From Mesostigma viride (lineage: Eukaryota; Streptophyta; Mesostigmatophyceae; Mesostigmatales; Mesostigmataceae): 64,000 nucleotides of DNA. Location: contig RPFO01000084.1 of assembly GCA_009746045.1 (NCBI GenBank), positions 1,010,176 to 1,074,175 of the forward strand. The letters are read 5' to 3'. The translations under genes and the position numbers were made by a program. This document shows positions 1 to 53,144 of the stretch, in pieces; position 1 is the first letter of the stretch, and the number at the start of each line of letters is the position of its first letter. The notes under the pieces are model-generated. The model was not told the origin of the DNA. It worked only from the letters and a program-made list of their open reading frames with translations, and did no database searches.

Positions 1-86
1 CTCCCTCCATCCATCCATCCGGGTTAATGCTCCGTGATGTCCCAGTGGAAGCACGAGTTTAATTATATAATTAATTAATGTGGACA
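1..86 (+). mobile_element. LINE 3' terminal fragment
   Basis: This is a CATC-repeat stretch, then GGGTTAATGCTCCGTGA, a short stem-loop and an A/T-rich TTAATTAAT tail. The same series ends the APE-type LINE fragment at 21169-22056 (opposite strand) and the copy at 58200-58265. It is therefore the 3' end of a LINE whose body lies to the left of the window. No coding part is visible. Confidence 0.6.
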
Positions 87-284
87 TGTGTGTGCATGGG
101 CAAAAGCTGGCTAACTCAATCAAAAGACGTGATAATAATTTAGTACTTAATAAGTTAATTAATAAGACATGTGCACCGTGTGTACAACAGGCATCAGTAA
201 TCACCGATAAGTAAACCAAGGCAACCACGATGTTAGATCATGGATCCAAGTCGACAAAGCTGCTGTCACGGTATCCTACATGTC
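87..284. other. A/T-rich spacer, nothing recognised
   Basis: Spacer between a LINE tail and the 3' end of the minus-strand kinase gene. I see no gene or clear regulatory element. Confidence 0.4.
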
Positions 285-1466
285 CTAACCCCTGACACGC
301 GGGAGGGGCACCGTGTTCCGTGGTGTCCCTGGAGCGTTCTCTGGGCAAGGCCTGGAAACAAAAGGCCGAGCATTGCGAAACAACTCCTCCACTTCAGACA
401 TCGTGGGTAGCGGGAAAGCAAGGGGGCCCAACCTTTTGGTGTGGTAATAGACATTGTGACACAAGTTAAATAGCCCTGAATCCACAGAATTCACGAAGAG
501 AGCGCGGCCCTTATGCCGAAACAAGGATACCACCATTACAAGGAAGGAGTACACATCATGGTCTCGCTGCGCTGTCACCACCCCTCCTGTCATGCCGGGC
601 TGGTCCACTGTTGCGGGATGCCACCGAGGCTGACGATCCTTACCAGCCTGATGCGTGAAAATCCGTTCCCCCCCTCTTGTCGCCAGGCCGAGATCTGCAA
701 TACGGATTATCGGATGTGCACTTCCTGGCGCCATGGTGTAGAGAAAATTATCGAGCTTGACGTCATTGTGTATAATGTTAACGGCGTGCAAGCCAGCCAA
801 TGCCTTTGCACAGTCTGCAAGGACGCTGGGTGAGCAAACTTCGAAAACACGCTGATTTTCCGGGGCATCACGGGCAGCATGCAAGTCACCACTCATTCTC
901 TCCATGACAATACCACCTACTTCACCGCACGTGGACCAGAGCCCTTCTACTGCAGGGCAGACCTGCGGGCCAGCTATAGACATGAAACCGGCCTCCTTGG
1001 CCACTGCCACAACGGCGGTTATAACAGCCTCCTGGTAGTTCACCAGCAGCGTGTCTCGTCGAAGGCTTGCCAGCTTTACCACTAGCGTAGCCTCGCCACC
1101 TGGTGCACTCGAGCTAGCAGGGATAGCGTATAACGTGCCATGAGCACCTTTTCCTATCCGGTCACCGGACAATTTCACTGCGATGACATGCGTCAACTTG
1201 CTAGCGCTGTGAGAAACCTTTTGATCATAATTCGTCAGCCGCTGCAATGCAATGCTCCAATCCGACGGTGCATTGGTTTGCAGCTCAACGTCCCTGCGAG
1301 CGTGCGAGTCCGCGGCGTTGAACACACGCGACACCCTATGCAAAGCGGTGCATGTACGCAGTCTGTAAGTCCGTGAATTAAAAGCCTGTCTCGCCCTTAA
1401 TGCCGACAGGGTTCCCGGCGACAGGTCCTGTCTGTTGGTCGACATTTTTCTTTTGCAGCTGGCCAT
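285..1466 (-). CDS. Protein kinase, eukaryotic type, divergent
   Basis: A single uninterrupted 393-residue protein starting at an ATG. It has a basic N-terminal extension of about 95 residues, then a kinase fold. The glycine loop reads GDRIGKGAHG (101-110), followed by VVK with the ATP lysine at 131. The catalytic loop is IIHNDVKLDN (231-240), so HRD is HND but Asp235, Lys237 and Asn240 are kept. The metal motif is DLG (258-260) instead of DFG. All catalytic residues are present, so it is probably active as a Ser/Thr-type kinase. HND and DLG mark a divergent branch, and I cannot assign a family or substrate. It is intronless, unlike the RUS and DUF3700 genes to the right. Its 5' end faces the hairpin repeats at 1560-1992, which may hold its promoter. 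It lies outside the 12-kb element that begins at 1993. Confidence 0.8.
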   Translation of the reverse strand: MASCKRKMSTNRQDLSPGTLSALRARQAFNSRTYRLRTCTALHRVSRVFNAADSHARRDVELQTNAPSDWSIALQRLTNYDQKVSHSASKLTHVIAVKLSGDRIGKGAHGTLYAIPASSSAPGGEATLVVKLASLRRDTLLVNYQEAVITAVVAVAKEAGFMSIAGPQVCPAVEGLWSTCGEVGGIVMERMSGDLHAARDAPENQRVFEVCSPSVLADCAKALAGLHAVNIIHNDVKLDNFLYTMAPGSAHPIIRIADLGLATRGGERIFTHQAGKDRQPRWHPATVDQPGMTGGVVTAQRDHDVYSFLVMVVSLFRHKGRALFVNSVDSGLFNLCHNVYYHTKRLGPLAFPLPTMSEVEELFRNARPFVSRPCPENAPGTPRNTVPLPRVRG

Positions 1467-1559
1467 TGTAGGTAGGTATGAATGATCTCGATGCTGTCAA
1501 TTACGATGATACACGAGGTAGTCTATACCTAGGATCGAGAGCTTCTTCTTGTATGGCAA

Positions 1560-1992
1560 TGCCGGCTGGGCGATGACGGTGACGGCCGTCACCGTCATCG
1601 CCCTCGACGGGCGTGATGAAAAGTACCTGGTTGATAGGCGGCAGCTATTCACAATATAGGCCGTTTTTTATTACTCCGAATAAAGAGTTAAGAGGTTGGC
1701 CCTCGGCAGGGCGATGACGGGGCGCTGACGGGGCGATGACGGGGCGATGACGGGGCGTTCACGCGCGTGATGAATACAACCTGTTTGATAGGCAGCGGCT
1801 ATTGGTAATATACTTTGTTGATTAAGAGAAGAGTTTAGATGTTGGCCCGTCGAGGGCGATGACGGTGACGAGCGTCACCGTCATCGCCCTCGACGGGCGT
1901 GATGAAAAGCCCATGTTTTATATGCGGTAGCTATTGGTAGTCCGTAGTATATAGGTCGTTGACTATCACTCCGAATAAAGAGTTAACAGGTT
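1560..1992. repeat. Three tandem hairpin-bearing units of about 150 bp
   Basis: Units start near 1566, 1708 and 1852. Each has a GGGCGATGACGG-type segment, then GGGCGTGATGAA, a GATAGGCGGCAGCTATT-like segment and ATAAAGAGTTAA. In units 1 and 3 the first part is a near-perfect inverted repeat centred on GGTGACGNNCGTCACC. In unit 2 it is replaced by short GGGGCGATGAC repeats. They lie directly upstream of the kinase gene. The third unit ends exactly where the 12-kb element begins. Confidence 0.75.
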
Positions 1993-2075
1993 AAGTGTCG
2001 GCGCTTGCATACTGTACATACATATGTTATGTAGTGGCGTGATCCACAACGTCGTTGTGGGTCACGCTACACTTC
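1993..2075 (+). repeat. Left terminal inverted repeat of the 12-kb element
   Basis: The first 12 bases are identical to the complement of 13969-13980, and gapped similarity runs for about 80 bp. It contains the palindrome GATCCACAACGTCGTTGTGG. A second copy of the same start sequence follows at 2093 and a third at 9606, but only the outermost pair is flanked by GGTT. Confidence 0.7.
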
Positions 2076-2092
2076 GGCCCACCGCCACGCTC

Positions 2093-2395
2093 AAGTGTCG
2101 GCGCTTGCATACTGTACATATGTTATGTAGTGGCGTGATCCACAACGTCGTTGTGGGTCACGCCACTACATACAGTGCATACAGGGCCTTAGCGTGTGGC
2201 AGTAGACCGAAGTGCACCCGGCGTGTACACCCGTGTACACCCGGAGTGTACACCCGTGTGCACCCACTTCGTTGTGGGTCACGCCACTACATACAGTGCA
2301 TACAGGCCTTAGCGTGTGGCAGTAGACCGAAGTGCACCCGGCGTGTACACCCGTGTACACCCGGAGTGTACACCCGTGTGCACCCACTTACACTT
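2093..2395 (+). repeat. Left subterminal array, two 121-bp units
   Basis: Units begin at about 2150 and 2271. Each has GTTGTGGGTCACGCC, then CACTACATACAGTGCATACAGG, a GTGGCAGTAGACC segment, and a run of GTGTACACCC-type palindromic words. Open frames in this array are repeat artefacts. Such subterminal arrays are often transposase binding sites; that role here is inference. Confidence 0.75.
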
Positions 2396-2701
2396 GGACA
2401 TGTACAGGCAGTGCCGAGCGCCGAGCAGCCGACTTTCAGGTGAACCGCCCAAAGCAATTGAACATAATGCATGGAGCGATAATAATATGGAAATAAACTA
2501 ACACCCATTTCACCGGAAATAATGCATGGAGCGATAACGTACGCCCAAAACCAAAACCTAGAGGAAGCATTTTCGCGCACTGTGTGTTGCTATAAAACAT
2601 CAAATATTTACTGATACTGAATTCATTATCTACTTAGTCATACCACAAAAAAAAAAATACCACGCGGGTTGTCAGACAGACATACCAGTACATACATTGT
2701 A

Positions 2702-3669
2702 ATGGCGTCTGTACAGCCACCAGATCCTGCGAAGGAGCTAAATCGCAAACTCAATGCCAACGCCCGGCGAGCTACGTACGTGGCTAAGCGGATTAAAGAA
2801 ATGGGCAAAGACGCCTGGCTGGAGCAGCGCAGAGAAGCCCGGAAGAAGGAGTACGCAGCAGAATCGGCTGCTGTGAAGGCCGAGGAGCCGTGGGCAGTAG
2901 CGAAGCGGGATTGCGATAACGCCCAGCGGCGCTTCTTGTACCGCAACAAGAAGTGGTGGAGACGCTGTGCAGGCAACGAGCCGCCTTGTCACCCATGGAT
3001 TCGGTTGCGCATGAGGCCCAAATTGCTCTTGGGACGAGCGGCTTATTTAGGACATCAGGTCTTGTGATGCCATCAGAACTGGCCCTGCTTCGTGAAATGT
3101 CTCAGCCTGGAAATACGGTCTATGAGCCGATCTTCAACGCGGTAACTTACAACAAGAAAACTCGCGCATTCGTGACAAATTCTGGTGACAAGCACCGATG
3201 GATGGGCTTCGTGCCCTTCGAGCAGGGTGACCCGGCGCGTAGGATCGCAAATCGTCTGGTGCGTGTCCTGATGGGCCCGGACGGCAAGCATTTCCCAGTG
3301 AAGGGCTACTTTCTGTGGAGCAAGGCGGGATGCAAAGAGCAGCCCGCCCATTCGGACTACACGCGATACCCGGGAGCATGGGATGTGAACTACCCCGTGT
3401 CGGTCATAGTGGCCCCCTTCGCTGGCACATCGTTTGTGTACTGGGAGAACAGTATACTGTACCCAGGCGTGGACAACATGAGCTCCCGCCCTGACGTCAC
3501 GAAGAAGACGTTAGTGTTGGAGGCCGGCGATGTCTTGGTGTGGCACGGGGCGCTTGTGCACGCGGGAGCGGCGTACAAGGAAAGGGATAACTTTCGTTTT
3601 TTCTTCTACGCCCCGGCACTGGGTGAGAAGGGGCTCGTGAAGGACGCGGTGAACCCCGTCCTCGTTTAG
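2702..3669 (+). CDS. 2OG-Fe(II) dioxygenase-like protein
   Basis: Two overlapping plus-strand frames seem to form one gene. The first, from ATG 2702 to about 3060, is highly charged and Lys/Arg/Ala-rich, like a basic or coiled N-terminus. The second, open from 2920 to the stop at 3669, carries a double-stranded beta-helix oxygenase domain. It has AHSDYTRY with the HxD iron ligands (3349-3357), T-F-VYW strands, then GDVLVWHGALVHAG with the distal His, and NFRFFFY with the 2-oxoglutarate-binding Arg. All four key residues are present, so activity is plausible. The frames must join by a short intron or a frameshift between 2920 and 3067, and I could not fix the junction. The fold includes TET/JBP, AlkB and prolyl-hydroxylase relatives, and the substrate cannot be told from sequence. 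It sits just inside the left end of the 12-kb element, with AATAAA about 235 bp past the stop. Confidence 0.6.
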
Positions 3670-3924
3670 GATAGGCTAGTGTCATGCACTTGTTGTACGG
3701 TCCTGGCTGACTGCTACATGTCAGAACAATATACAAGCATCCTGCATTGACCTCCCCACGGAGGCATGTTATAATTTATAATTTAATCCTGCATTGAGTA
3801 GGATACAACATTACCTGTCCACACAGTGTTTGGTTGGACACTGATTACACGTGACCTGCTGAGCAAATAGTGTCCGTGGGCTTTGGTTTTCCTGCTGCTG
3901 TAATAAATAAAGCTTAAGTCCTCG
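3670..3924. other. 3' flank with LINE-tail-like hairpin
   Basis: No gene. 3757-3790 has CTCCCCACGGAG followed by GCATGTTATAATTT, the same hairpin-tail word found at the 3' ends of LINE copies at 49085 and 14410. An AATAAA lies near 3904. Confidence 0.4.
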
Positions 3925-4620
3925 TCACTCACTCACTCACTCACTCACTCACTCACTCACTCACTCACTCACACACTCACTCACTCACTCACTCACTCAC
4001 TCACTCACTCACTCACTCACTCACTCACTCACTCACTCACTCACTCACTCACTCACTCACTCACTCACTCACTCACTCACTCACTCACTCACTCACTCAC
4101 TCACTCACTCACTCACTCACTCACTCACTCACTCACTCACTCACTCACTCACTCACTCACTCACTCACTCACTCACTCACTCACTCACTCACTCACTCAC
4201 TCACTCACTCACTCACTCACTCACTCACTCACTCACTCACTCACTCACTCACTCACTCACTCACTCACTCACTCACTCACTCACTCACTCACTCACTCAC
4301 TCACTCACTCACTCACTCACTCACTCACTCACTCACTCACTCACTCACTCACTCACTCACTCACTCACTCACTCACTCACTCACTCACTCACTCACTCAC
4401 TCACTCACTCACTCACTCACTCACTCACTCACTCACTCACTCACTCACTCACTCACTCACTCACTCACTCACTCACTCACTCACTCACTCACTCACTCAC
4501 TCACTCACTCACTCACTCACTCACTCACTCACTCACTCACTCACTCACTCACTCACTCACTCACTCACTCACTCACTCACTCACTCACTCACTCACTCAC
4601 TCACTCACTCACTCACTCAC
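3925..4620 (+). repeat. (TCAC)n microsatellite, about 696 bp
   Basis: About 174 nearly uninterrupted copies of TCAC, with one small defect near 3971. It separates the oxygenase gene from the transposase gene inside the 12-kb element. Its assembled length is probably unreliable. Confidence 0.97.
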
Positions 4621-5300
4621 TGGGTATTGGGTACCTTAGGCATTCGTATGGCAAGGTAGGGAAACTTGAGTCTGATTTTAGGGTAGTGCAATGTGGTAGT
4701 TTGTTTGCTGGGCCACTAAAACCCCTTGAGTGTGACCTTCATGAATCCAGGGTAGGGTAAGGGTTGGTTAGGGTATTACATAGTGGTGGGTATTGTAAGG
4801 TAGGTCTTGAGCTCCTTGAGTGTGACCTTCATGAATCCAGGGTAGGGTCAGGGTTGTAACTATAGAGATACTCACTTAAAAGACTGTGACATTCAAGAAA
4901 CCAGGGTATGGAAATGCGTGTTGTTTGGGGTTGTTTGACTGGCGTACATTACCATAGTTGTCTAACTTAATAGTGGCACGGGATGATGTTATTGCTACTA
5001 CTACTATAGTAATACTCCTAAATTATTGTCATGTGTATAGGGTTTGGGTCTGGTGGTGTGCCCTTTGGCATCCGGGGTGCATGTACATTTACATGAGTGA
5101 GCATTTGCATGGTACATTTGCATGGTGAATGCACTGGACATTTATTAAAAAGGAGGAAATAAACTGAATAGCCGTTGAGTGGAAATGGCTATGGACATGA
5201 ATCCAAAACCACATTGTTGGCATTGCAACATGTATGCTGTGCTGCAGCACTATGTTCTGTTTAGGACATCAAACAGCATTACATCAGAATAAGACATCAA
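4621..5300. other. Gene-free spacer with short imperfect repeats
   Basis: No gene seen. A block reading CCTTGAGTGTGACCTTCATG AATCCAGGGTAGGGT occurs at about 4724 and 4813, with a weaker third copy near 4880. GGTA/GGGT-rich motifs dominate. Confidence 0.5.
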
Positions 5301-5368
5301 AAGTGTGTCATGACAGGATCTCTCTCCTCACATTGAGGATAGACAGTTGTACAAGTATGGCACGGGCC

Positions 5369-8300
5369 TCAGGCACCAAACACCAGCCACTTGAGGGCAT
5401 AGTTGAAATCCGTCTGCTTGGTAAGGGTGTCATGCACAGCCTCCTCGCCCTCCTCCTCCGGGTCCCACAGGACGTTGAACGACCAGCCTGCCGTTGTCTT
5501 CTTGGGCAGCGGCTCGACACGGACCGAGTTGCGTGGCGGTGTGTTGGCGATGGTACCGTAGTACCACTTCCAGTAGGGCTTGCCGTCATCCCCCACCACA
5601 TCCCACAGCTGGCAGATGCGCCTGCCAACCATGGACTCAGGGGTCAGCTGAGAGAGGTGCAACACCTGGGCGGCCAGCAGCTCGGACGCCACAGGTGGGT
5701 CGATCTTCTTATCCTGCATGCGCTTGTACGCACCCTCCTTGTACGCATGCGGGTCGTCCTTGTTGGCATGCGGGTCCCACTTGATGATGACGCGAGCCTT
5801 CTTCGTGGGTGACGCCTTCTTCTTGGGCGACGCCTTGGAGGAGGTGGCGGGGCCCGCCTTGGTGGTGGTGAGGCCAGCCTTGGTGGTGGCGGGGCCCGCC
5901 TTGGTGGTGGTGGGGCCCGCCTTGGTGACGGTGGGGCCCGCCTTGGTGACGGTGGGGCCCGCCTTGGTGACGGTGGGGCCCGCCTTGGTGACGGTGGGCG
6001 CCGAGTGAACCGGTGGGAGGACGTCTGTCTCGTCAATGAACGGGCCACCTCCTCGGAATCCTCGAACGTTGACAGGCGTTTCATTTCGTACCGCCTCTTG
6101 AATGGCACCTGCACCTTGTCACCATGATGTGTCACAGTGGGGGGGGATGGCTCGTCGTCGTCCTCGTCGTCGCAGAGGTCGTCCTCGTCGTAGTCCTCGT
6201 CACTGTCCTCGGCATATGACACCTGCACGCAGTGAGGTGAGGTAAAGCAGCAGCAATGATGATGTCTGTCATGCGTGTACGGGCAAGAAAACCAGCACGG
6301 AGACTGTGTACGCTGGACTAGGGAACCCCATGCATACTAAAATGGGTCACAAAAGTACCGCTACCTTAAGGGTTACACACTCACAACTCCTACATTGCAA
6401 ACAATAACAAGCAAGGGACAATCTGACAAGCATGGACATACCTTCTTGCGAGCCGCACGCGTGCGCTTGCGTGGGGGCACGGCAGCTTCGCCATCTGGGC
6501 GGGCATTGGAGGTGGTCGCGGCCTCCACCACAGGGGTCGGGACAGCTGGCGCCGTCTTTGTGTTGTTGGTGGATGAGCCCGCACGCCCCCTCTGCTTCTT
6601 GGTGGGCGGGCCACCTTGGGCAGCATTGTGGGCGGCCAGCGTCTTCTTGCTGCCCCATACGCGGCACTCCTCGGGGGGTTTGTAGCCCACCACCCCCCTC
6701 TCACCTGCTGCATCTGACGCAGGGGGGGGGGGCAACCCAGTTGGGGTCGACCTCGAAAACGGTGCCTTCAGCGGGCATGGAATCTGGACCGGGCGTGTTG
6801 GCCAGGGGCACCCGCAAGGAAGCAGCCTCAACCTGTTACATACATACAAGGCAAACACACACACACACGGTGCGAGGCAGGCCAACACGCAAAAAGTCAG
6901 CTAAAGGGATTGTGCGGACAGGACAAGTATCAGTTGGTTTGCCAAGTTAAGAAGTCAGCCAGTGGTCCACACATTGCAAAGGCACACCAGCTGAGTTCTT
7001 TTGACATGGTGTCAGAGGATTGATGAAAATGCTCGACTACGCGATGCATTAGCAGCCTGACTTACCGCATCAGCGTTGGGAGTGACCGCCAGTTCCTCGT
7101 CAGTTGGGCGTGGGACCTCGTATTTCGTGAAGCCCTCGGGGCAGACGAGTGCGTCGCGCTTCGGATCCCGCTGGAGGCTGACGGCACAGCCGGTCTGCGT
7201 CCAGCCCTTCATGATGGTCAGCCTGCCCTCAGGCCCGCAGAGGCGGATCCAGGCGATAGCCACGGCATTCTGGATGATGATCCGCGTCTCGGAGGCGTTG
7301 GGCGGGTCAAGCCCATCGCGGGCCCTCGCGTCCATTATGCGGGTGACCTCCGCGTCAAACCAGCGCTTGAACACGGCATTGATGCAGCAGTCATTTGGCT
7401 GCCACAAGTGGGTCATGTTGCCCGGCCCATACCACGGCAACACCCCCATTTCCCGGAGGACTTTCCGAAAGGCGGGGGAGACCTGCATGCACCGATCCAC
7501 CGCAGCACCAAAACACCCAGGCATTGGAAACGACACATAAAAAAAAGAGAATATTAGTCTCCGGCATCATCATCACCACATGCCTTGCAGCCAACATGCA
7601 CATGCACTGAAACGAAACAAGCCAAAGAAAATTGGGGTAATAAGGAAGGAAACACATGCCCACCTGAACAGCGAGGTTGTCCAAGAACAAGAGGACGTCA
7701 CGCTTGCCGTGCTTGGCGTACAACTTCTTCAAAAAGGCTTCAAACAGTTGCAACCACACCTCCGGGGCGTGGTCGCTGAACCAGGCGGAGGCCTGAAAGG
7801 TGACAACCGCCTCAGGCATGTACTGGTTGGTCTCGTAAGCCATACGAGCCACGTTCTTACCCGCGCCGGGGAAGATGATGAGGGGGGGGGCATGTCAGCC
7901 AGCCAGTTCTCGTCAAAGGGGGAGTGGGGGGCGGTGGTCAGGCAAACGGTAACTGCCCGGTGCTTGTAATCCACCTTCTTGGTGCCCATGTTCACGTGGG
8001 ACGCCCCTTTCTCCGCGAAGCACTTGCCCTTCATGTTCCTCAAGGCAAGGCCCACCTGGTCCATGTTAAACCGAAACGTGCCGGTAGCGGGGCCGATGGG
8101 GAAACGCCCCCAATATGGGTCCCTGAGCGCCCTCAAGCCGCTGTTCAAACCGGCGACGATGAGCCCGGAATGAAACTGCTGCAACGCGGGCAACGCCTCC
8201 TCCATGGTGACATTGCGGTGGTTGCTCGCCATCCGCGTGACAAGGCCCCGTCGGCACGCGAACTCGCGGGCCCACGTGTCGGAGTACGCAAAGCCCATCC

Positions 8301-8962
8301 CCGCCGTCGGGTAATGTTTAGCCATCAAGATCTTGGCCTGTGCTTTGACGACGCTGCAATACGATTGGGAAAAACAGGCACGCAAGCAATGAGAGGGCGA
8401 CAATCAGCAAGCTTTTGCGCTCCTTCGAATGTTCACCAAATACACATGCCGCTGTTTAAAGACAGAAACTACCCATCAGTGTTTTCAGCAAAACGAAGAA
8501 CAAGGAAAGCATGCAAACTTACGCAAGCACAGGGGCTCTCTTCTGGCTGACGATCCAGTCCCTCAAATCCGCCTCCATTAATGGAAAGCGGCCTTCTCGT
8601 TGTTTGCCGGGCACCAACCCTCGGCCCGAGTGGTTTTTCAGGCTTGGGTCATCAGCCATGGCACGGATCTTCGCCTTCGTCTCAGATTCCAGCCACCGGC
8701 AGACGGTCGAAGTGCTCACTCCATATTGCTTGGCGACGGCCGACGGCGTGGTAGTTCCCTGTTCGATACACGTGACTGCGACAACTTTCTGCTTCGCGCT
8801 CACGAGCGTGACCAGCTTTGTCTTGGGTGGCTCCAGGATGGGCGCCGCCTTGTCGTCAGCGGTGGGCAAAACATTGTCACTATTGGCCGGAACGCGCGCG
8901 CACAGCTGCGGCTGTCTCCGCCGTGGTTTAGCCCCACTTTCTTTGCCTGTGAAGTTAGTCAT
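5369..8962 (-). CDS. Pogo/CENP-B-type DDE transposase with Tudor-like C-terminus (frameshifted)
   Basis: Five exons can be read on the minus strand: 8962-8523, 8353-7664, 7482-7066, 6832-6442 and 6222-5369, all with GT-AG borders in matching phase. Exon 1 holds a helix-turn-helix of psq/CENP-B type (AVAKQYGVSTSTVCRWLES). The DDE_1 catalytic core follows: FNMDQVG (first Asp), LLFLDNLAV (second Asp) and LWQPNDCCINAVFKRWF (third Asp). After the core come a disordered part with KKQRGR and RKRTRAARKK basic clusters, an acidic patch, about ten (T)KAGP repeats, and a terminal domain with VGRRICQLWD and YWKWYYGTI resembling a Tudor/SH3-like barrel. The frame slips at G/C runs near 7882-7890 and 6722-6731 and again near 6050. 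It is therefore either a decaying gene or has sequence errors. It is transcribed away from the deubiquitinase-like gene and would mobilise the 12-kb element. Confidence 0.75.
5830..6005 (-). repeat. 18-bp minisatellite encoding KAGPTVT-type repeats
   Basis: About ten copies of an 18-bp unit (GGGCCCGCCTTGGTGACGGT on the plus strand, with GGTGGTGG variants). In the minus-strand transposase frame they encode a Lys-Ala-Gly-Pro-Thr spacer resembling linker-histone-like tails. Confidence 0.8.
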
Positions 8963-9249
8963 GGGGCGTGGCTATGGCGCCAGCCCTCGTGGTGGGCACA
9001 CGTGTACAGTATGGATGGTGCGCACACTTGGGTTGTGCGCAGGTCAGGTTGGTGGTGGATGTGCCACAGGACGACCGATGCTCTTTTTTATATGCAAATT
9101 TGGGCGCCAAACTCAATTTGCACCGACTTTGCCAGATATTTGCCGACCTACACGTGGCTGAGTTGACGTTTCGCGGGCATCGGACGCGCGGGTTAGTCAG
9201 TGTTGCGAATCTGACCATTCGCAAATCGGCGTCGGGCCTGGATCTGGCG

Positions 9250-9455
9250 CCTCGCAATTTGAAAATTGCGGTCTCATTAGGTACGCAATCTACCGACTTG
9301 CGTACATAAGTAGTACTGTAGGACGGCGCAAGGGCGCAAGTGCGCACTTGTCGCGCCTCGCAATTTGAAAATTGCGGTCTCATTAGGTACGCAATCTACC
9401 GACTTGCGTACATAAGGAGTACTGTAGGACGGCGCAAGGGGGCCAGTGCGCAACT
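9250..9455 (+). repeat. Two tandem 104-bp units between divergent genes
   Basis: Each unit has CGCCTCGCAATTTGAAAATT, GCGGTCTCATTAGGTACGC, an ACGCAAT/TTGCGT inverted word and ACTGTAGGACGGCGCAAG. They lie upstream of the transposase start (8962, minus) and of the deubiquitinase-like start (10109, plus), so they may belong to a shared promoter region. That role is inference. Confidence 0.75.
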
Positions 9456-9469
9456 TGTCGCGCCTCTTC

Positions 9470-10026
9470 ACCGTGTACACCCGGCATGTATACCCGGAGT
9501 GTACACCCGGAGTGTACACCCGTGTGCACCCGGCAGTGCAGACCGAAGTGGAGCGTGACCCACAACGACGTTGTGGGTCACGCTACACTTCGGCCCACCG
9601 CCACCAAGTGTCGGCGCTTGCATACTGTACATATGTTATGTAGTGGCGTGATCCACAACGTCGTTGTGGGTCACGCCACTACATACAGTGCATACAGGGC
9701 CTTAGCGTGTGGCAGTAGACCGAAGTGCACCCGGCGTGTACACCCGTGTACACCCGGAGTGTACACCCGTGTGCACCCACTTCGTTGTGGGTCACGCCAC
9801 TACATACAGTGCATACAGGGCCTTAGCGTGTGGCAGTAGACCGAAGTGCACCCGGCGTGTACACCCGTGTACACCCGGAGTGTACACCCGTGTGCACCCA
9901 CTTCGTTGTGGGTCACGCCACTACATACAGTGCATACAGTGCCTTAGCGTGTGGCAGTAGACCGAAGTGCACCCGGCGTGTACACCTGTGTACACCCGGA
10001 GTGTACACCCGTGTGCACCCACTTAC
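9470..10026 (+). repeat. Internal array: end-like sequence plus three 121-bp units
   Basis: 9473-9605 resembles the inner part of the right end at 13830-13940: GTGTACACCC words, GAAGTGGAGCGTGACCCACA, then a GTTGTGG palindrome. At 9606 the left-end sequence AAGTGTCGGCGC restarts. Three near-identical 121-bp units follow (starts about 9664, 9784 and 9905), the same unit as at 2150. This suggests a head-to-tail junction of two related elements, or recruitment of end sequence as a divergent promoter. Confidence 0.75.
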
Positions 10027-10108
10027 AGGCGGACTTGAGGATGAATTACCATCCTTGAAAAAATGATGTTTTGACGTAGGTGGTCGGAAAGTTGCACGAA
10101 CGGCAGCG

Positions 10109-13100
10109 ATGGCAGACGGCTTGGCTACGTCGGCGGAGAGAGTGAAGGACACACTGGCCACCATGCGCTCGACATTGCGTGAGCCGGTAAGTACAGTAGA
10201 CGGTTACGCAGTTGGCGGGTATAATTTCATGTTACGCGGCTGGGCATATTACGGAGACAAGGTCGTTGTCCCTGGCGTTATGCAGGCAGGTGATGCGTGG
10301 CCGGGCGCCATGCCCTTTTTGTTTTTTTTGGGCCAACATGCACCTGATGCTTTTCGTCGGTTGTTGACAACCCAATCTGGTGGCTGGCATCCATGCTTTG
10401 GACGTACGCGGGCCGGGATGCACGTGCACGGAGCGCAGGTGAACAATTGCAAGACACCGAATGACTTCGTCAGTCTGTCCAGAGATTTTAAGGGCTCTCC
10501 CGTTGAGAGGCTCGTCGTTACCTTACACACGAAACAGGAGTTACACAGGCGCAAGGATGACCTGAAGAAGCTGGCTGGCGATACGTGGGACGTCAACGCA
10601 TGCACGGCCGCCGTAAGGTTTTCCCTGTAATGTAGCTACAATGTTGTTGCTTTCTGTTGGATGCATTGCAGGTAGAATGCTAGGCCTTGAACCAACCGGC
10701 CGAGGCACATGGGTGACGTCTCTGAATTTGTGGCATGGGGTGTTCCTGGTTTCATGCTGCTTCAATGTACATGGATGCCGTTTGTACGCAGCATCGACGA
10801 CTGAATGAGCACCAGAATAAGCGCGCTGCAAAGGTGTGGCCTGTCAAGAGTGAGCGCGATGCAAACCTGCGGAAGCTTGGAGCCTCAACATCGTCTGCTG
10901 ATGAGCAGAAAGAGGCTGAAGGTGCAGCGCCGGTTGCGTCTGGGGGTAATACACGGCAACCAGCGACGCAGGGTCAGCTCGCAGTCCTTCCCCCGCCCCT
11001 AACCTCCGCCTCCCCCCCAATGCCGTCCTTGGCTCTCTCAGGGGGCTTATCAAGCCTCCCACATGCGGACAGTGCTGCCCGTGCTGGCTACGAGGTAGCA
11101 AATGAGGCGCAACATCTGCTTCGAGCTGCGCTAGAGGCTTTGCAAGGCGTGACAGCAAGTGCGGCGCCAATCCTTAAAGACCCCGTTGCAGCGGGTAATC
11201 TGGCGCAGGCAGTCGTGACCAACCAGATACTCGCGCAGGTAGGGCTCCTGTTATTTTGCACTGAGTTTACCTGTTTATCGGGTTGTTTGTTGTGTTCAAG
11301 CAGTAACGTCTTATCTGAGCATCTCCATTGTTAGGATGTCCACGGCCTTGGCACACCGGGCTTATTTACAGCAATAATCTGCCTGGTGATGTGTGTGATC
11401 GGCACTGTGTGTTGCAGCTCATGCGCGTGGCATCAGCAGCCAATCGGGGCAGCGGGGACGAGGCCGCCACGGCGGTGGTGGGCGGGGGCAGCGGGGACGA
11501 GGCCGCCACGCCGGTGGTGGGCGGGGGCAGCGGGGGTGAGGCCGCCACGGCGCCGGTGGGCGGGGGCAGCGGGGGTGAGGCCGCCATGCCGGTGGTGGGC
11601 GGGGGCAGCCGGGATGAGGCCGCCACGGCGGTGGTGGGCGGGGGCAGCGGGGGTGAGGCCGCCACGGCGGTGGTGGGCGGGGGCAGCCGGGATGAGGCCG
11701 CCACGGCGGTGGTGGGCGGGGGCAGCGGGGGTGAGGCCGCCACGGCGGTGGTGGGCGGGGGCAGCCGGGATGAGGCCGCCACGGCGGTGGTGGGCGGGGG
11801 CAGCGGGGGTGAGGCCGCCACGGCGGTGGTGGGCGGGGGCAGCCGGGATGAGGCCGCCACGGCGGTGGTGGGCGGGGGCAGCGGGGGTGAGGCCGCCACG
11901 GCGGTGGTGGGCGGGGGCAGCCGGGATGAGGCCGCCACGGCGGTGGTGGGCGGGGGCAGCGGGGGTGAGGCCGCCACGGCGCCGGTGGGCGGGGGCAGCC
12001 GGGATGAGGCCGCCACGGCGGTGGTGGGCGGGGGCAGCGGGGGTGAGGCCGCCACGGCGGTGGTGGGCGGGGGCAGCCGGGATGAGGCCACCACGGCGGT
12101 GGTGGGCGGGGGCAGCGGGGGTGAGGCCGCCACGGCGCCGGTGGGCGGGGGCAGCGGGGACGAGGCCGCCACGGCGGTGGTGGGCGGGGGCAGCGGGGGT
12201 GAGGCCGCGGGCAGCGGGGGCGGGGTCGCGGCCAGCAATGATGGGTGGACAGTTTCTGAAGATGCGGAGGAGGTGGACAGTGCTGAGAAGCGCCCAACCG
12301 AGGAGCAGGCACGTACGGGGCCTGACGCATTCATAGACGTGGATGCGTGGGCGGATGCGGTTGAGGCTGCGGCTGCGGCTGCGGGGGGGAAGCGAAAGCG
12401 AAGCCCAAGGCCAGCCGCGCCACTGAAGGTGGTGGGTGATGATGCCCCGTGCACGTCTTGCCAGCAGGGTGCCAGGTTTATGGCGGAGGAAGACTTGGTC
12501 GTAACAGGCGAGCATCAACGCGTTATGAAAAACCAAGGCAACAACTGTTGCTTCTTAGATGCAGCAGTTGACGTGATTTTTTTTACCATCTTGTTTGTCT
12601 TGCAAACACTTGGCGCCCCAGGACTGTCATTCCTCGTGACACGTCCGCCTTGTGTGCCACATACCCCGGATATTTGCCGGATCGGCTGGATTCTCATGAA
12701 ATTGATGTTCTACCGGAGTGCTGGTAGGCTGGACATGATGACTACTAAATGGCGGAATGAGCTGTTTGATCAGCTTTCCAAAGTCGCCCGGGTGCGTGAG
12801 CTGCCGATTCAAGTGGGAGGAATGGGGTCCGTCCATGAAGCATTGTCGCTACTTCTTGTACATTTGAAGGGGTGCCAGCCTACCTTTACACCCTACAAGT
12901 GTGTCGCACGCGCTTCGGAAAAAGAAGATTGTGAACCCCCGCATCCAATCGACCTACGTGTGGCGCACGGTTCCGTACTGGAACGCCTCATGGACAACGC
13001 CGGTTTGTTGGCCAACATGCGGGCTGTCTGCCTGGAAGGCTATATAAGCATCCACCAAGTCGCACGGTGTAAAAGCTTGGGACCGGAACCGTGCCTGAGG

Positions 13101-13478
13101 CAGCGTGTCTTTAAAGGCAACCCCGCATACCTGGTGTTTACCATGCTCCATGGGGAGAAGAGTATCCCCTTGGACAACTACAGTGGGCCTCCTTTGCCCG
13201 TCGCTTTCAATGTGGAAATTAATGTGGATGAAGACGGTGCCATGTCTAAACGCACAGTGGACCTGCGCCTTGCAATTCTCATGCGAGCGTATTATAAGCA
13301 CTGGACCACATTGGTGCCTGCAAGCACTGACCCCACCAGGTGGTGCGAACAGTGGGTGGAGTATGATGACCTTAAGAAAACCGTCCAGCCACGTGGTCGT
13401 CTGAGTGATGTCGTCCAGCAGTTGACCGGCTGCATGTATGGAGCGGTGTACCGTGTGATTACGCCATGCCAGAACTAA
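10109..13478 (+). CDS. USP-type deubiquitinase-like protein with 12-residue repeats
   Basis: Three exons in matching phase, 10109-10612, 10792-11238 and 11418-13478, give 1003 residues. Residues 1-168 form a domain I do not recognise. Residues 170-317 are Ala-rich with predicted helices. About 340-600 is a run of some 21 VGGGSGGEAATA-type repeats, then an acidic stretch and a KRKR basic cluster. The C-terminal 320 residues resemble a C19/USP cysteine peptidase. The Cys box is NQGNNCCFLDA with Cys694 or Cys695. The His box is AYYKHWTTLV (His945), followed by WVEYDD (Asp967-968). Typical USPs read GNTCYLNS and GHY, so this is a divergent member. Deubiquitinase activity is inferred; action on another ubiquitin-like modifier is possible. 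AATAAA lies about 67 bp past the stop. The gene is inside the 12-kb element and diverges from the transposase. Confidence 0.7.
11449..12210 (+). repeat. 36-bp minisatellite in the deubiquitinase-like gene
   Basis: About 21 head-to-tail 36-bp units built on GGTGGTGGGCGGGGGCAGC and GAGGCCGCCACGGC, with alternating GGGGGTGAG and CGGGATGAG subtypes. The unit length keeps the frame. All six frames stay open here, so the other long proteins readable from this stretch are artefacts. Confidence 0.95.
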
Positions 13479-13489
13479 CCGAGTGCAGT

Positions 13490-13596
13490 GTCAATCATGC
13501 TCCACGGCTCCCCACCGGGACTCCGCGTAGTTAATTAAGTAATGCCAATAAATGTGAATGGTGAGGACAACTTAATATCAACTTGTCATCGAGTAC
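13490..13596 (+). repeat. 105-bp direct repeat, copy 1 (3' flank of the deubiquitinase-like gene)
   Basis: Begins TCAATCATGCTCCACGGCTC and ends at TTGTCATCGAGTA. It is essentially identical to 14778-14882. It starts with a GCTCCACGG hairpin and TTAATTAAG, like the LINE tails elsewhere in the window. Confidence 0.85.
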
Positions 13597-13819
13597 TGAC
13601 CGCGTACATGTGTCTCCCATGCACATGCTGACAGGTTTACTGGGGATTAGCGTGCACTTTAGGTTGGTCAGTCAGTCAGTTTATTCCCACGCCGGTTATC
13701 CGACAGAGTTATATTAAGGGGGTTAGTCAGTGTTGCGAATCTCGCCTCCTAAGTCCTACGATAATCTTAGTTAATACTCGTACATTATTACAACTAGGTA
13801 CTGGTGAACTTATGAACTT

Positions 13820-13980
13820 TCTACATAATACACCCGGCGTGTACACCCGTGTACACCCGGAGTGTACACCCGTGTGTACCCGGGAGTGCACTGCGAAGTG
13901 GAGCGTGACCCACAACGACGTTGTGGATCACGCCACCACATACATATGTACAGTACATACTTGTACTAGCGCCGACACTT
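13820..13980 (-). repeat. Right terminal repeat and subterminal array of the 12-kb element
   Basis: GTGTACACCC-type words (13830-13880), GAAGTGGAGCGTGACCCACA, the palindrome around 13915, and the terminal inverted repeat ending at 13980. In reverse complement it matches 1993-2075 with small gaps. GGTT follows at 13981. Confidence 0.7.
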
Positions 13981-13984
13981 GGTT

Positions 13985-14400
13985 AAACATACATGAACAT
14001 TAATACTTGTGACATGATTAGAATTAATATAATGGTAACCCCTTCCTTGCTGGGTAAATAATAATAGTTAGTAACTTGGGCTGGACAAGCATGGTTAAGG
14101 TAATGGCAACATGACTTGCCTAAAGCATTGTTGTTCACTTTGTCTTGACCACCATGGTAAGGGTACATGGTAACATCACTTGGCGTGTATCAAATGGTGA
14201 CTTGGGCTTGACAACCATAGCTAGTGTAGATGGTACCATCACTTGGCTTGATTTATTAAGTTAGACAACTAACTTGATAAACATTGGAGGCCTGAGGTTG
14301 AGTTCCATGGTTATGGTAGGGGTAATACCAGCATCACTACCCTAACTCATTAATTGAGTGATGTTTAATTGAGTATGTTAGTGGGAGCATGTACAATGTG
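13985..14400. other. A/T-rich gene-free region
   Basis: No gene seen. Recurrent words such as CATGGTAA and ACTTGGNTTGACAACCATGG suggest an old degenerate tandem repeat of about 60-70 bp. Confidence 0.4.
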
Positions 14401-14404
14401 ATTT

Positions 14405-14640
14405 TAATTTTAAATTTAATTAAATTATAACATGCCTCCGCTGGGGGGCCATGTAGCACATATTCCAGTGGGGGGTGGGGGTGGGTGGAAGCTGAACCGC
14501 GGGGCCCAAAGGGGGCCATCTATTCTAATCTACTCTAAACCTTTCTAGCCTTGCGCTTGCCCCGCCCTGTGGTGGGGGGTTTGCCCACAGGGGCAGGCTC
14601 ATGTGCCAAGACAATGTCTTGCCACAATGTGATATGACTT
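14405..14640 (-). mobile_element. APE-type LINE 3' end fragment
   Basis: On the minus strand it carries the last codons and 3' region seen in the LINE at 49085-49310: CCTGTGGGCAA then CC-rich sequence, TATGTGCTACATG, a hairpin around CCCCCAGCGGAGG, and GCATGTTATAATTTAATT. It is 5'-truncated to about 230 bp. Confidence 0.55.
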
Positions 14641-14748
14641 CCACTATGAGTATAAAAGTCCTCATGGCATCGGGAAGGAGGGTTAAGGCGAGACATGGGG
14701 CCCCCAGCAATATGACCGCCCGTGCATGCAATGCAGCCTACAAACTAA

Positions 14749-14916
14749 TGTTTCACTTAATACAAACTAATGCACAGTCAATCATGCTCCACGGCTCCCC
14801 ACCGGGACTCCGCGTAGTTAATTAAGTAATGCCAATAAATGTGAATGGTGAGGACAACTTAATATCAACTTGTCATCGAGTATGTTTCACTTAATACAAA
14901 CTAATGCACAGTCAAC
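14749..14916 (+). repeat. 105-bp repeat copy 2 between two 34-bp duplicates
   Basis: The segment ATGTTTCACTTAATACAAAC TAATGCACAGTCAA occurs at 14749-14782 and 14882-14916. Between them lies the second copy of the 105-bp sequence found at 13490-13596. The arrangement suggests insertion with a 34-bp target duplication, or a local tandem duplication. Confidence 0.75.
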
Positions 14917-14917
14917 C

Positions 14918-15478
14918 TAAACTATACTAGTACGATGAAAGGCTAGACACCCCGGGCCCCACGACGGAGGGCACGGCTAGCCCGCCGGCTAGCACGGCTA
15001 GATGTAGCATGTTCCTTCCAATATGAACCTAAATCTCCTGCATCAAGTATATAGCAGTCATTCACTTTATATACATGCATGCTGTAGCGAGCAAATAAGT
15101 GGACAACTGAAAGGGGTCAACCAAGGCAATTGCAAAGCCGTAGTATGTCTGCAAGCAAGCCTGCCTTTAGATAAGGAGAGTTGGGTCTTATGACAGGTCC
15201 TATCATAAGACCCAACTCTCCTTATCTAAAGGCAGGCTTGCTTGCAGACATACTACGGCTTTGCAATTAAATTGGTTGACCCCTTTCAGTTGTCCACTTA
15301 TTTGCTCGCTACAGCATGCATGTATATAAAGTGAATGACTGCTATATACTTGATGCAGGAGATTTAGGTTCATATTGGAAGGAACATGCTACATCTAGCC
15401 GTGCTAGCCGGCGGGCTAGCCGTGCCCTCCGTCGTGGGGCCCGGGGTGTCTAGCCTTTCATCGTACTAGTATAGTTTA
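14918..15478. repeat. 561-bp near-perfect palindrome (foldback element)
   Basis: Arms 14918-15193 and 15203-15478 are inverted copies about 276 bp long, with only a few differences (for example around 15120 and 15270) and a 9-base spacer. Arm ends read TAAACTATACTAGTACGATG. No coding potential. It looks like a foldback or MITE-type element and would form a long hairpin RNA if transcribed. Confidence 0.9.
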
Positions 15479-15558
15479 CTGCTACCAGGCTTCCTAACAC
15501 TCTAGCAACGATGGAAGTTTATGTTCATCATGGCACTACATCCATGTAAGTACCGTAA

Positions 15559-16441
15559 GTTACGTTAAATAGTGCCGGAACCTTTTGCCGCCTGAGGCAA
15601 ATCGGTCCGTAACACTATTTTGCCCGGAATAACCACTTCCGAGCACCCAAGTTAATTCGGCCGAATTAACTTGGGTGCTCGGAAGTGGTTATTCCGGGCA
15701 AAATAGTGTTACGGACCGATTTGCCTCAGGCGGCAAAAGGTTCCGGCACTATTTAACGTAACTAAAACCTGGCCTCATGGAGGGGGGACGAAGAGCCCGA
15801 GACATCCGCCTAGGCCGCTGAGCACGCACCACTAAATGCGCCGGAACTGCCTCAGTGAGGATTCGAACCCCTGACCTCCAAGGTGCACAGGTTTTAGTTA
15901 CGTTAAATAGTGCCGGAACCTTTTTGCCGCCTGAGGCAAATCGGGCCGGAACACTATTTTGCCCGGAATAACCACTTCCGAGCACCCAAGTTAATTCGGC
16001 CGAATTAACTTGGGTGCTCGGAAGTGGTTATTCCGGGCAAAATAGTGTTCCGGCCCGATTTGCCTCAGGCGGCAAAAAGGTTCCGGCACTGTTTAACGTA
16101 ACTAAAACCTGTGCACCTTGGAGGTCAGGGGTTCGAATCCTCACTGAGGCAGCTCCGGCGCATTTAGTGGTGCGTGCTCAGCGGCCTAGGCGGATGTCTC
16201 GGGCTCTTCGTCCCCCTCCACGAGGCCAGGTTTTAGTTACGTTAAACAGTGCCGGAACCTTTTTGCCGCCTGAGGCAAATCGGGCCGGAACACTATTTTG
16301 CCCGGAATAACCACTTCCGAGCACCCAAGTTAATTCGGCCGAATTAACTTGGGTGCTCGGAAGTGGTTATTCCGGGCAAAATAGTGTTCCGGCCCGATTT
16401 GCCTCAGGCGGCAAAAAGGTTCCGGCACTGTTTAACGTAAC
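15559..16441. repeat. Nested foldback array: three 205-bp hairpins and two inverted spacers
   Basis: Hairpins at 15559-15762, 15897-16102 and 16236-16441 are copies of one palindrome that starts GTTACGTTAAA and is centred on AATTCGGCCGAATT. Spacers 15763-15896 and 16103-16235 (about 134 bp) are inverted copies of each other. Each spacer holds a T-loop/B-box-like word (GGATTCGAACC at 15859; GGTTCGAATCC at 16130) in the context GGAGGTCAGGGGTTCGAATC C, as in tRNA 3' halves. Long open frames here are antisense-palindrome artefacts. Confidence 0.9.
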
Positions 16442-16575
16442 TCCGTACTGTAGGTTGTCTCCACATATCGCTGATCAATTCTACTTGTGTTGGAAAGGTT
16501 TTTCCATCACATTGGTGCCCACACTTTGGTGGGTCACAGAAGGGTTAGCATGACATGCGTCCAGCCAAGGTTGTT

Positions 16576-17586: not shown

Positions 17587-17711
17587 AATACCACGAAACC
17601 AGCTTTTAGAGCAAAAGTTATGGATGGATTGTGAACTTCGAAGTGAGACGATGCCTGTGAATATACATGCGCACGCAGACCTCGCCACCTTGGAAATAAA
17701 ACAGTCAAGAC

Positions 17712-17938
17712 GCCAACCGATACAGGATGTATCGGTTGGGGGCTCCTCTTTACGTTCTGTACTTCTGTAGGTACATTACGTGTTGGGCCGGTGGTCAGCT
17801 CGTAACAAGTCAGTCAGTCTGTCTCTTGCGGAACTTCAAGTACAGAATTCGCCACCACTTTGGGCCGTATCGGTCCTTGGTAGTTACGCAACAAACATTC
17901 GAACGGTCGCCGTGGAAAGTACCTTTGTTGCGTAACTA
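17712..17938. repeat. Two short inverted repeats upstream of the MYND gene
   Basis: 17712-17738 is an 11-bp stem (CCAACCGATAC/GTATCGGTTGG) with a 5-base loop. 17881-17895 and 17924-17938 pair as TAGTTACGCAACAAA and its complement around a 28-base loop. Function unknown. Confidence 0.7.
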
Positions 17939-18234
17939 GTTGCGTTACCGCGGGTTGGTACTGTACCAGCTGCGCGGCAGCTCATGTCTATATAATTTTT
18001 CAAACATGGGCTGCATGTGCCGGCGCACGTTCACGACTCGCCAGTAGTGACGTAAAGCGCCTGAGGATCGACTCTAGTCTGAGTCTGCATGCAGGCCATG
18101 CCAGGCTAGGGCTCGATGAGCTCACGCAATTGCATGGCCGAGGCGTATAGATAATCTGATTTGGCACGCCGCAAAGGTGAAAACCATTTGCATTCAGTGC
18201 CGGTCCGCAGAAAACGTGGAAAAACGCGATCTGC

Positions 18235-20535: not shown

Positions 20536-20554
20536 TCGATATACATATCAACAC

Positions 20555-20960: not shown

Positions 20961-21049
20961 TCGGTGTCCTAGTTTTGCACGTGACGTAGTTAGGTGTACG
21001 TACCTTGTGCAGCTGGCGTGATCCTTGGATTAATTAATTAATAATTAGT

Positions 21050-53100: not shown

Positions 53101-53144
53101 CTGCACCGCAAAATCAGCCCGCGTACGGCGGAGCATGAATCATG

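Follow-up and report, generated by a model that had tools for sequence, protein, structure and literature searches.

Published transposons of the pogo superfamily are described as small, encoding little besides a transposase; they measure 1.2-5.2 kb and carry one or two ORFs, and Fot-like elements have been reported in one green algal species, as far as the accessible sections of that survey go (PMC7386202). DD35D falls within the 33-40 of the pogo groups in the available part of a second source (PMC7325037). Algae also harbor giant transposons of the KDZ, EnSpm and Sola-1 types, which exceed 10 kb, contain accessory genes and nested insertions, and frequently have decayed transposases, with supply in trans presumed; the autonomous Mariner-Tc1 element among the algal transposons, in the portion of the source at hand, is 4.4 kb (PMC12477816). 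In fungi, TET/JBP transposons including IS3EU, which has an alpha-kinase, carry, beside the transposase, a kinase as well as an Fe(II)/2OG oxygenase, and neither "mariner" nor "pogo" occurs as a word in the main text describing them (PMC12730594).

Here we describe a transposon in a 64,000-nucleotide stretch of Mesostigma viride DNA (the window; positions count from its first letter, and negative ones lie to its left). It resembles the Fot-like, DD35D members of the pogo superfamily in its DDE_1 domain, DD35D triad, TA duplication and short (37 bp) terminal repeats, yet it is ~20 kb long with at least four non-transposase ORFs, compared with the 1.2-5.2 kb given in the accessible sections of the survey (PMC7386202). 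Like the giant algal transposons, as available excerpts describe them, it exceeds 10 kb and combines accessory genes and nested insertions with transposase decay and presumed supply in trans. In contrast to it, they belong to other transposase superfamilies, and their ParB-like plus DNA methyltransferase accessory protein was not seen in the element here (PMC12477816). With both an oxygenase of the Fe(II)/2OG type and a kinase next to its transposase, the element recalls the fungal TET/JBP transposons; however, the oxygenase here is PhyH-class and the kinase PF00069-type, which sets them apart from the fungal genes in the part of that report available (PMC12730594).

Ends and target site of a 20-kb element

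Comparison between copies delimits an element of 19,935 bp at C1702:1008204-1028138, corresponding to window positions -1971 to 17963; its in-window portion is 1..17963, and it starts 1,971 bp to the left of the window. The stretch that an earlier note had taken for a complete 12-kb element is the middle part of this larger 20-kb one. The left terminus is common to the window and C557 copies, and the right terminus to these two and the C2 copy. Similarity breaks off at -1973 for C557 and at 17965-17967 for C557 and C2, with unrelated DNA outside. The left and right terminal inverted repeats, each 37 bp and starting CAGTACC, are identical, the right one (CAGTACCAACCCGCGGTAACGCAACTAGTTACGCAAC) occupying 17927..17963 on the minus strand. 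A TA target-site duplication lies at 17964..17965, with its partner at -1973/-1972, and TA also flanks the filled and empty sites of C557 as well as all four short non-autonomous copies that were read.

With up to three mismatches, the terminal pattern has 84+97 matches in the genome, compared with 4+2 for a control. Among 100 such places listed, 78 make up 39 plus/minus pairs, and 23 of the 39 pairs span 4.9-5.45 kb; many non-autonomous copies of ~5 kb are bounded by the same ends as the large element. At the other extreme, the C557 and C302 copies reach 43.6 kb and 35.6 kb. The earlier note had proposed comparing filled with empty sites, which succeeded for C557: its joined flanks match 15 paralogous empty sites across the joint at 92-95%, plus one more at 72%, and the two that were aligned have a single TA at the joint. 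For the window's own insertion, by contrast, the assembly holds no empty site.

The ends, the TA duplication, several independent insertions, a DDD-type transposase, the non-autonomous copies and four further ORFs inside are all directly observed, and we regard it as nearly certain that this cut-and-paste transposon is a giant member of the pogo group, spanning about 20 kb between the ends given here. At 19,935 bp and with at least five genes, it lies outside the published pogo range of 1.2-5.2 kb and one or two ORFs.

Nested repeat DNA occupies 15479..16442; the C2 and C557 copies are without it, their matches jumping from 15478 to 16443. A repeat resembling this nested DNA was found near C2:6126773.

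Internal repeat arrays

The 12-bp sequence AAGTGTCGGCGC is present at 1993-2004 and its complement at 13969-13980, with GGTT directly outside both and a further inverted match between 2028-2076 and 13894-13942 (49 bp, 96%). The pair that the earlier note read as element ends is real, but similarity between copies continues through both 1993 and 13980, and the true ends are at -1971 and 17963. Likewise, GGTT stands where it had been described, but is not the target site, the real duplication being TA. The earlier note had also called for a search for other copies with AAGTGTCGGCGC, and this was productive: the motif has 145+124 matches in the 440-Mb genome, compared with 8+8 for a reversed control. 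Of 23 near-identical oxygenase loci, 17 have all three genes listed in that note (oxygenase, transposase and USP-motif gene).

Within the 12-kb stretch, AAGTGTCGGCGC has two additional copies, at 2093 and 9606. Three internal repeat arrays lie in the window: one at 1993..2400, flanked by the divergently oriented kinase and oxygenase genes and containing the earlier left "end"; one at 9463..10045, separating the transposase gene from the USP-like gene, which is divergent to it; and a third at 13821..13980, containing the earlier right "end". Further repeat motifs lie beyond the stretch, at about -1113 to -1000, and in all four short copies having CAGT ends.

A separate 12-kb transposon that had once entered an older TA-type element with a GGTT duplication, and has since travelled inside it, would place GGTT on either side of a matching inverted pair, as found. 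The large length variation among copies, up to that of C557 and C302, suggests nested insertions, and the C302 and C168 copies have DNA left of the outermost motif that is unlike the window's. This DNA, however, belongs to the left end of the element itself (window -1547 to -958, 98.6-98.7%); the junction therefore marks an array-to-array deletion within the element, not a new target. The other five of the seven large copies fetched carry the same flank left of 1993 (window, C184, C557, C17 and C902), and the flank right of 13980 is the same in all seven copies fetched there (window, C184, C557, C17, C302, C168 and C2). Furthermore, the motifs are not confined to the two proposed ends, occurring outside the stretch, within it and in the short copies; the 12-bp pair is found without matching flanks at five other loci; and the transposase inside the stretch is of pogo type, expected to make TA. 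From the part of the 269 motif places that was fetched, we consider such a separate insertion very improbable, and take the arrays to be internal parts of the 20-kb element.

A pogo-type transposase

The putative transposase gene (5369..8962, minus strand; exons inferred by eye at 8962-8523, 8353-7664, 7482-7066, 6832-6442 and 6222-5369) matches DDE_1 (PF03184) in Pfam at 34.2 bits (cut-off 22, 2.4e-8; first three exons joined, with one X at the frame break). The earlier note's reading of the stretch as mobile DNA that encodes a DDE transposase is borne out by this match and by the multiple copies. We read a D-D-D triad by eye, the last two Asp being separated by 35 residues (DD35D); a relative on C998, at 49-52% over the catalytic part, keeps all three. 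Scores for N-terminal domains fall below their cut-offs (HTH_23, 22.3 bits against 24.6; CENP-B_N, 18.3 bits against 21.2), and a Pfam scan of the C-terminal piece 5372-5842 gave no result.

Judged by sequence features, namely the DDE_1 domain, the D-D-D triad, the TA duplication and the terminal inverted repeats, the element is assigned to pogo within the IS630-Tc1-mariner group. GGTT had seemed at odds with the TA expected of a pogo-type enzyme. The real duplication is TA at the window, at the short copies and at C557; there is therefore no conflict, and the GGTT puzzle disappears.

The window copy is not intact, with frames broken in both the oxygenase and the transposase. One transposase break, at a C-run, is the same in all six copies aligned there, and the frame is open in the C2 copy; at the second, near 6043, all five other copies differ.

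Accessory genes

The transposase, oxygenase and USP-motif protein of the earlier three-gene list are all present, but the list was short by a kinase and a MYND-finger protein. The gene for a predicted PhyH-class Fe(II)/2OG oxygenase (2703..3669, plus strand; domain 2974-3666) has a broken N-terminal frame here. PhyH (PF05721) scores 24.1 bits (curated cut-off 22) while covering only ~23 C-terminal residues of the window protein, and is matched by all nine alignment members, the window included, at E up to 0.5. H126, D128, H196 and R208 are invariant in these nine; we take them to be the HxD...H metal triad and distal Arg of Fe(II)/2OG oxygenases. A TET/JBP type was considered for this protein and rejected, as Pfam at E up to 1 returned PhyH alone and no TET/JBP family match. 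Solved-structure searches with the oxygenase gave matches only at E 0.02 or worse. Its longest open frame is 249 aa in the window and three other copies, and 335-369 aa at 17 others. Pfam gave no result for eight of the nine ORFs of L062/L063, the ninth being the L062 oxygenase.

C557 also has the protein kinase ORF (285..1496, minus strand; PF00069, 33.2 bits, cut-off 31.7), the C902 piece has part of it, and C168 and C302 are without it. The MYND-finger ORF lies at 16576..17775 on the minus strand (PF01753, 28 bits, cut-off 22.7).

Large size and several cargo genes might also befit a piece of some endogenous virus, or a hybrid of virus and transposon, and a gene-dense stretch of C1475 that contains more distant relatives of the oxygenase is viral-looking in layout. 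Yet capsid, polymerase and packaging genes are absent among the 12 element ORFs scanned in Pfam. No relative emerged from IMG/VR scans that used the two alignments and the USP, transposase-exon and oxygenase pieces, and PHROGs gave three weak matches only, the best (1.4e-5) to a repeat-rich piece. On these scans we rejected a viral origin of the gene set, which appears extremely unlikely.

The USP-motif protein gene (10109..13478, plus strand, start inferred) comprises N-terminal exon(s), an array of 39-bp peptide-coding repeats (about 11440-12217) and a C-terminal domain (12480-13475). The array varies between copies, with 19, 11, 16 and 20 unit matches. Within the domain, His274 is present in all 11 alignment members and Cys24 and Asp296 in 90% or more; the three are invariant in 14 of 14 close copies and presumably form the Cys ... 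His ... Asp/Asn triad in USP order. The Cys/His/Asp motifs behind the earlier description of a USP-like peptidase are thus present, but a family match is not: UCH/USP (C19, PF00443) in Pfam matched neither the window protein nor appeared among the families matched by the 11 members, and a PDB search gave no match. HMM searches of the three proteins, put forward earlier as a check, placed PhyH and DDE_1 above cut-off and returned none for the USP-motif protein. The 47 genomic UCH matches all lie elsewhere than the 77 matches of this domain, and a single-sequence AlphaFold2 model of it had a mean pLDDT of 36, with no usable fold. From its motifs only, the protein is a possible deubiquitinase; family and structure searches by sequence were negative.

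Across the 23 near-identical oxygenase loci, a USP-motif gene lies within 45 kb at 19 and the transposase at 20. Accessory genes that were chance-captured passengers, decaying without selection for the element, would be expected to look as some do here: the oxygenase and transposase frames of the window copy are broken, the peptide array is variable, the kinase is missing from two copies, and 11 of 25 near-identical USP-domain loci are partial or frame-split, some with stops. However, the 14 full-length USP-domain matches are all stop-free, and the oxygenase domain is open in all but one of 21 full-length matches, the exception being C1568, which has two stops. Relatives at 46% (USP-like) and 76% (oxygenase) identity stay open as well. 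Furthermore, omega between the window and its C335 USP relative is 0.38; the USP-like domain has therefore been kept over long times. We find it rather unlikely that these genes are mere passengers.

Divergence and amino-acid change among copies

Of the divergence peaks among copies, the one over the USP-like domain is the longest, at 1.8-3.7% compared with 0-0.8% in the noncoding DNA just downstream (Fisher's test, 1e-6 for C184, 1e-6 for C168, 3e-11 for C17 and 4e-5 for C302). Three shorter stretches are as divergent: the linker preceding the domain (2.9-3.3%), a 260-bp piece in front of the oxygenase (0-3.4%) and, in two copies, 133 bp at 16443-16575 (3.8-4.5%). In 17 copies chosen among the longer matches, the domain has ~81 amino-acid-changing and 15 silent changes (binomial p 0.033). 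Codon-model tests on 14 copies, the partial L078, L079 and L080 having been dropped, gave an omega of 2.0 (p 0.011) and, on repetition, 2.1 (p 0.007). For the oxygenase, a set of 11 (L082, with two stops, dropped and two C1324 copies added) gave an omega of 1.6, an excess that is not significant (p 0.07 and 0.06).

The other genes, pooled, have 23 changing and 4 silent changes, a sample too small to judge. Because silent changes are scarce there too, mutation bias could explain part of the amino-acid excess in the USP-like domain. Exchange with older lineages may also contribute to the divergence pattern. The variable USP residues show no significant clustering near the presumed active site (p 0.085).

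Proposed roles

We propose that the transposase would bind the CAGT ends, and perhaps the internal arrays too, and that it would mobilize both the large element and its ~5-kb derivatives. The arrays, two of them between divergent genes, may be shared control or binding regions. The accessory proteins would act on host chromatin silencing, ubiquitin-dependent turnover or signaling, keeping the element expressed. Of the coding parts compared, the domain of the USP-motif protein changes fastest, which makes this protein the leading candidate for being in direct contest with the host. A host-directed role of the accessory proteins would fit this rapid change and is a plausible, if tentative, suggestion; its odds are reduced, since comparable divergence is also seen in some short stretches of noncoding DNA. 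As a whole, the account of a giant pogo-type element with accessory genes and the roles proposed for them appears probable.

VANDALs are Mutator-like elements. In the accessible parts of their description, Arabidopsis VANDALs, like the element here, have short motifs arrayed in the same orientation in their noncoding DNA, and VANC, like an accessory protein here, has conserved and highly variable parts and tandem peptide repeats (PMC5735166). The likeness to the VANDAL/VANC anti-silencing system is in layout only. By analogy, a pogo lineage might have independently evolved a full counter-defense kit, in which motif arrays would mark element DNA and accessory enzymes would strip or block silencing there. 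The leading part in such a kit would fall to a rapidly evolving, deubiquitinase-like enzyme whose peptide array varies in length, and the kit would work in the VANDAL/VANC manner with a peptidase, an oxygenase and a kinase rather than a binding protein alone. We regard this extension of our account as distinctly doubtful.

A pogo element of 20 kb with at least four other genes would bring "giant transposon" status to the superfamily. Furthermore, its many young copies, in which one accessory domain forms a long peak of divergence, would offer a test, within one genome, of an arms race between transposon cargo and the host.

The element ends lie outside the inverted 12-bp motif

An earlier note had placed a 12-kb element at 1993..13980 of the window. 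The inverted pair behind that placement is real, since AAGTGTCGGCGC occurs at 1993 and its complement at 13969-13980, with GGTT outside both, and 49 further bases are in inverted match in the window sequence. These positions are not the ends of the element, as their flanks are common to other copies: the left flank at 1993 recurs on contigs C184, C557, C17 and C902 of the same genome, and the right flank at 13980 on C184, C557, C17, C302, C168 and C2. BLAST matches between copies continue across both positions, and a 701-bp stretch (14000-14700) is found at 20 places, window included, with at least 98% identity over most or all of its length.

By extending the window leftward and comparing it with the C557 copy at both ends and with the C2 copy at the right end, we mapped the true termini to -1971 and 17963 (negative coordinates lie left of the window). 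Similarity to C557 and C2 stops at -1973 and 17965-17967, beyond which the flanks are unrelated, and both termini read TA-CAGTACCAACCCGCGGTAACGCAACTAGTTACGCAAC, with C2 differing at one base. The element is thereby 19,935 bp long, its left end lying 1,971 bp outside the window. It contains two near-perfect palindromes, one at 14918-15478 with 280-nt arms, common to the C2 and C557 copies, and one at 15558-15763 with 103-nt arms, part of a nested repeat.

The 12-bp 'ends' are members of internal repeat arrays. Additional AAGTGTCGGCGC sites lie at 2093 and 9606, and across the genome (440 Mb, 2,243 contigs; the window being C1702:1010176-1074175) the motif occurs at 269 sites (145+124), compared with 8+8 for the control. 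On one contig of this genome, an rbcL judged to be green-type lies next to atpB, which makes a green alga the most likely host. The element is also rich in two other motifs, GTGACCCACAACG (15 sites) and GTGTACACCCGG (24 sites), at most one mismatch being allowed in each; neither occurs in the remaining 46 kb of the window or in five base-shuffled versions of the element. Two arrays separate divergent gene pairs (kinase/oxygenase and transposase/USP-like), a third lies near the left end and a fourth after the USP-like gene. The USP-like gene itself contains a peptide-coding 39-bp array, for which the pieces read from the window, C184, C168 and C302 give 19, 11, 16 and 20 unit hits, respectively. 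By analogy only, this layout of arrays and peptide repeats resembles that of VANDAL/VANC elements (PMC5735166).

C302 and C168 differ from the window to the left of the outermost motif; there, left-end DNA of the element itself (window -1547 to -958, 98.6-98.7%) is joined directly to 1991. In both copies, an array-to-array deletion of ~2.9 kb has taken out the kinase region. Among the copies read at that place, the kinase is present at C557, partial in the C902 piece, and absent from C168 and C302.

Related copies and empty sites indicate TA insertion

The terminal 22-mer, with up to three mismatches, occurs at 84+97 genome sites compared with 4+2 for the control. Of the 100 matches listed, all exact, 78 combine into 39 pairs, 23 of them 4.9-5.45 kb long and the others 6.1-43.6 kb. 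Four short copies, read from end to end, have only ends, subterminal DNA and internal repeats in common with the large element; their longest ORF is a repeat-like 201 aa, and the four lie at different sites, each bordered by TA. By eye, the short copy in C52 is inserted within a repeat whose uninterrupted form is seen at window 15583-15661. Once joined, the flanks of the 43.6-kb C557 copy find matches that span the joint at 15 paralogous sites (92-95%) and at one more (72%); the two empty sites aligned carry one TA, compared with two in the filled site. No empty form of the window's own insertion site was found in the assembly.

A pogo-type transposase

From the sequence, we read the transposase gene on the minus strand as five putative exons (8962-8523, 8353-7664, 7482-7066, 6832-6442 and 6222-5369), the last two being assigned to it tentatively. 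Joined with an X at the frame break, the first three score 34.2 bits against DDE_1 (cut-off 22); the HTH matches fall short of their cut-offs. A manual count over the motifs FNMDQ, FLDN and WQPND gives DD35D. A related pogo-type transposase at C998:1519838-1522755 is 49-52% identical over the catalytic part, keeps the three Asp, and has its second Asp separated from the third by an intron. The window frame has two breaks, one at a C-run and the other near 6043. All six copies aligned there have the first break, and the second is found only in the window among those six; in the C2 copy, the frame is open through the C-run, which may be real or an assembly error.

A recurrent cargo set

Besides the transposase, the element carries a kinase ORF (PF00069 match), a PhyH-class oxygenase (family and motif evidence), a USP-motif protein (gene at 10109..13478, plus strand, with a putative start) and a MYND protein (profile match). 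The trio of transposase, oxygenase and USP-motif gene proposed earlier holds up: at 19 of 23 near-identical oxygenase loci the USP-motif gene lies within 45 kb, and at 17 of the 23 the transposase is there as well. Four loci (C1910, C2206, C1468 and C1801) have no USP-motif gene nearby. The window oxygenase has a broken N-terminal frame and 249 aa open, as do C184, C1545 and C2206; the 17 other full-length matches have 335-369 aa open, one (C1568) with two stops within the match. After the oxygenase gene, a CACT-type repeat with 8-bp spacing extends over ~700 bp (3909-4639).

Related oxygenase genes also occur in other settings. At C1324:3598700-3601650, an oxygenase gene with 76% identity occurs as two inverted copies that have similar repeat motifs upstream, with no CAGT ends (the element's terminal inverted repeats) within the 9.9 kb read. 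Two C1579 loci ~102 kb apart (5898095-5903561 and 5999866-6005348) each place oxygenase and USP-motif genes ~4 kb apart, with no transposase on that contig among the matches listed. An oxygenase relative of ~35% identity at C1475:92500-100500 lies amid densely packed ORFs whose layout looks viral; the ORFs scanned there gave no Pfam match, and some fifteen further genome places score similarly.

The USP-motif protein is USP-like by motif only. All 11 aligned relatives share His274, and at least 90% of them have Cys24 and Asp296; Cys24/His274/Asp296 follows the residue order of USPs. The protein matches neither Pfam UCH nor solved structures, a single-sequence structure model of the domain gave no usable fold, and host UCH-type genes sit elsewhere in the genome. 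A second multi-copy USP-motif group occupies ~40 genome places (e.g. C1824, C1391, C1813, C446 and C419), mostly at 25-33% identity and often with long open frames; no transposase lies near its members among the transposase matches listed.

Rapid divergence of the USP-like domain

Relative to the window, the USP domain (12480-13475) diverges by 1.8, 3.1, 3.7 and 2.9% in C184, C168, C17 and C302, compared with 0-0.8% in adjacent noncoding DNA (13479-14740) and 0-1.0% in transposase exons (Fisher p for the excess 1e-6, 1e-6, 3e-11 and 4e-5). Divergence also runs high elsewhere: the linker directly upstream (12240-12479) diverges by 2.9-3.3%, the 260 bp before the oxygenase by 0-3.4%, 133 bp at 16443-16575 by 3.8-4.5% (two copies read), and one intron by up to 2.2%. 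Recombination with older lineages is a possible source of the USP-domain divergence.

Of 25 near-identical USP loci, 14 are full-length, none of them with a stop, and the remaining 11 are partial or frame-split. Seventeen domain copies, chosen among the longer matches, contain no stop and ~81 amino-acid-changing versus 15 silent changes by parsimony count (binomial p 0.033). The 14 near-complete copies give an omega of 2.0-2.1, significantly different from 1 (p 0.011 when no transition parameter is included, 0.007 when one is). The triad is invariant, and variable residues near it (10 versus 6.4 expected, p 0.085) are not significantly clustered. Mutation bias could also produce the USP-domain excess; the other element genes, pooled, hold 23 changing versus 4 silent variants, too few to separate such bias from relaxed constraint. 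Together, the divergence, the excess of amino-acid change and the omega values support selection on the USP-like domain.

Comparison with published elements

Beside the transposon, ORFs at 18981-28711 and 49222-54111 appear reverse-transcriptase-like by eye (e.g. 27932-28711, minus strand, with a YADD motif) and are probably adjoining non-LTR elements.

Published pogo elements measure 1.2-5.2 kb and contain one or two ORFs, and Fot-like members are reported from a single green algal species (PMC7386202); in another survey, Chlorophyta yielded no Tc1/mariner element (PMC7325037). Among giant algal transposons, accessory genes are known in KDZ, EnSpm and Sola-1 (PMC12477816), and some TET/JBP-bearing fungal transposons carry an alpha-kinase (PMC12730594); the words mariner and pogo are absent from the main text of the latter paper and from a giant-transposon review (PMC6431247). 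A giant pogo element with such cargo was not found in the literature searched, a search with most subscription papers outside its reach. The transposition chemistry is already known. We conclude that the element is a giant transposon of the pogo type whose cargo genes recur together and which, as far as the literature was searched, is new in its size and gene content.
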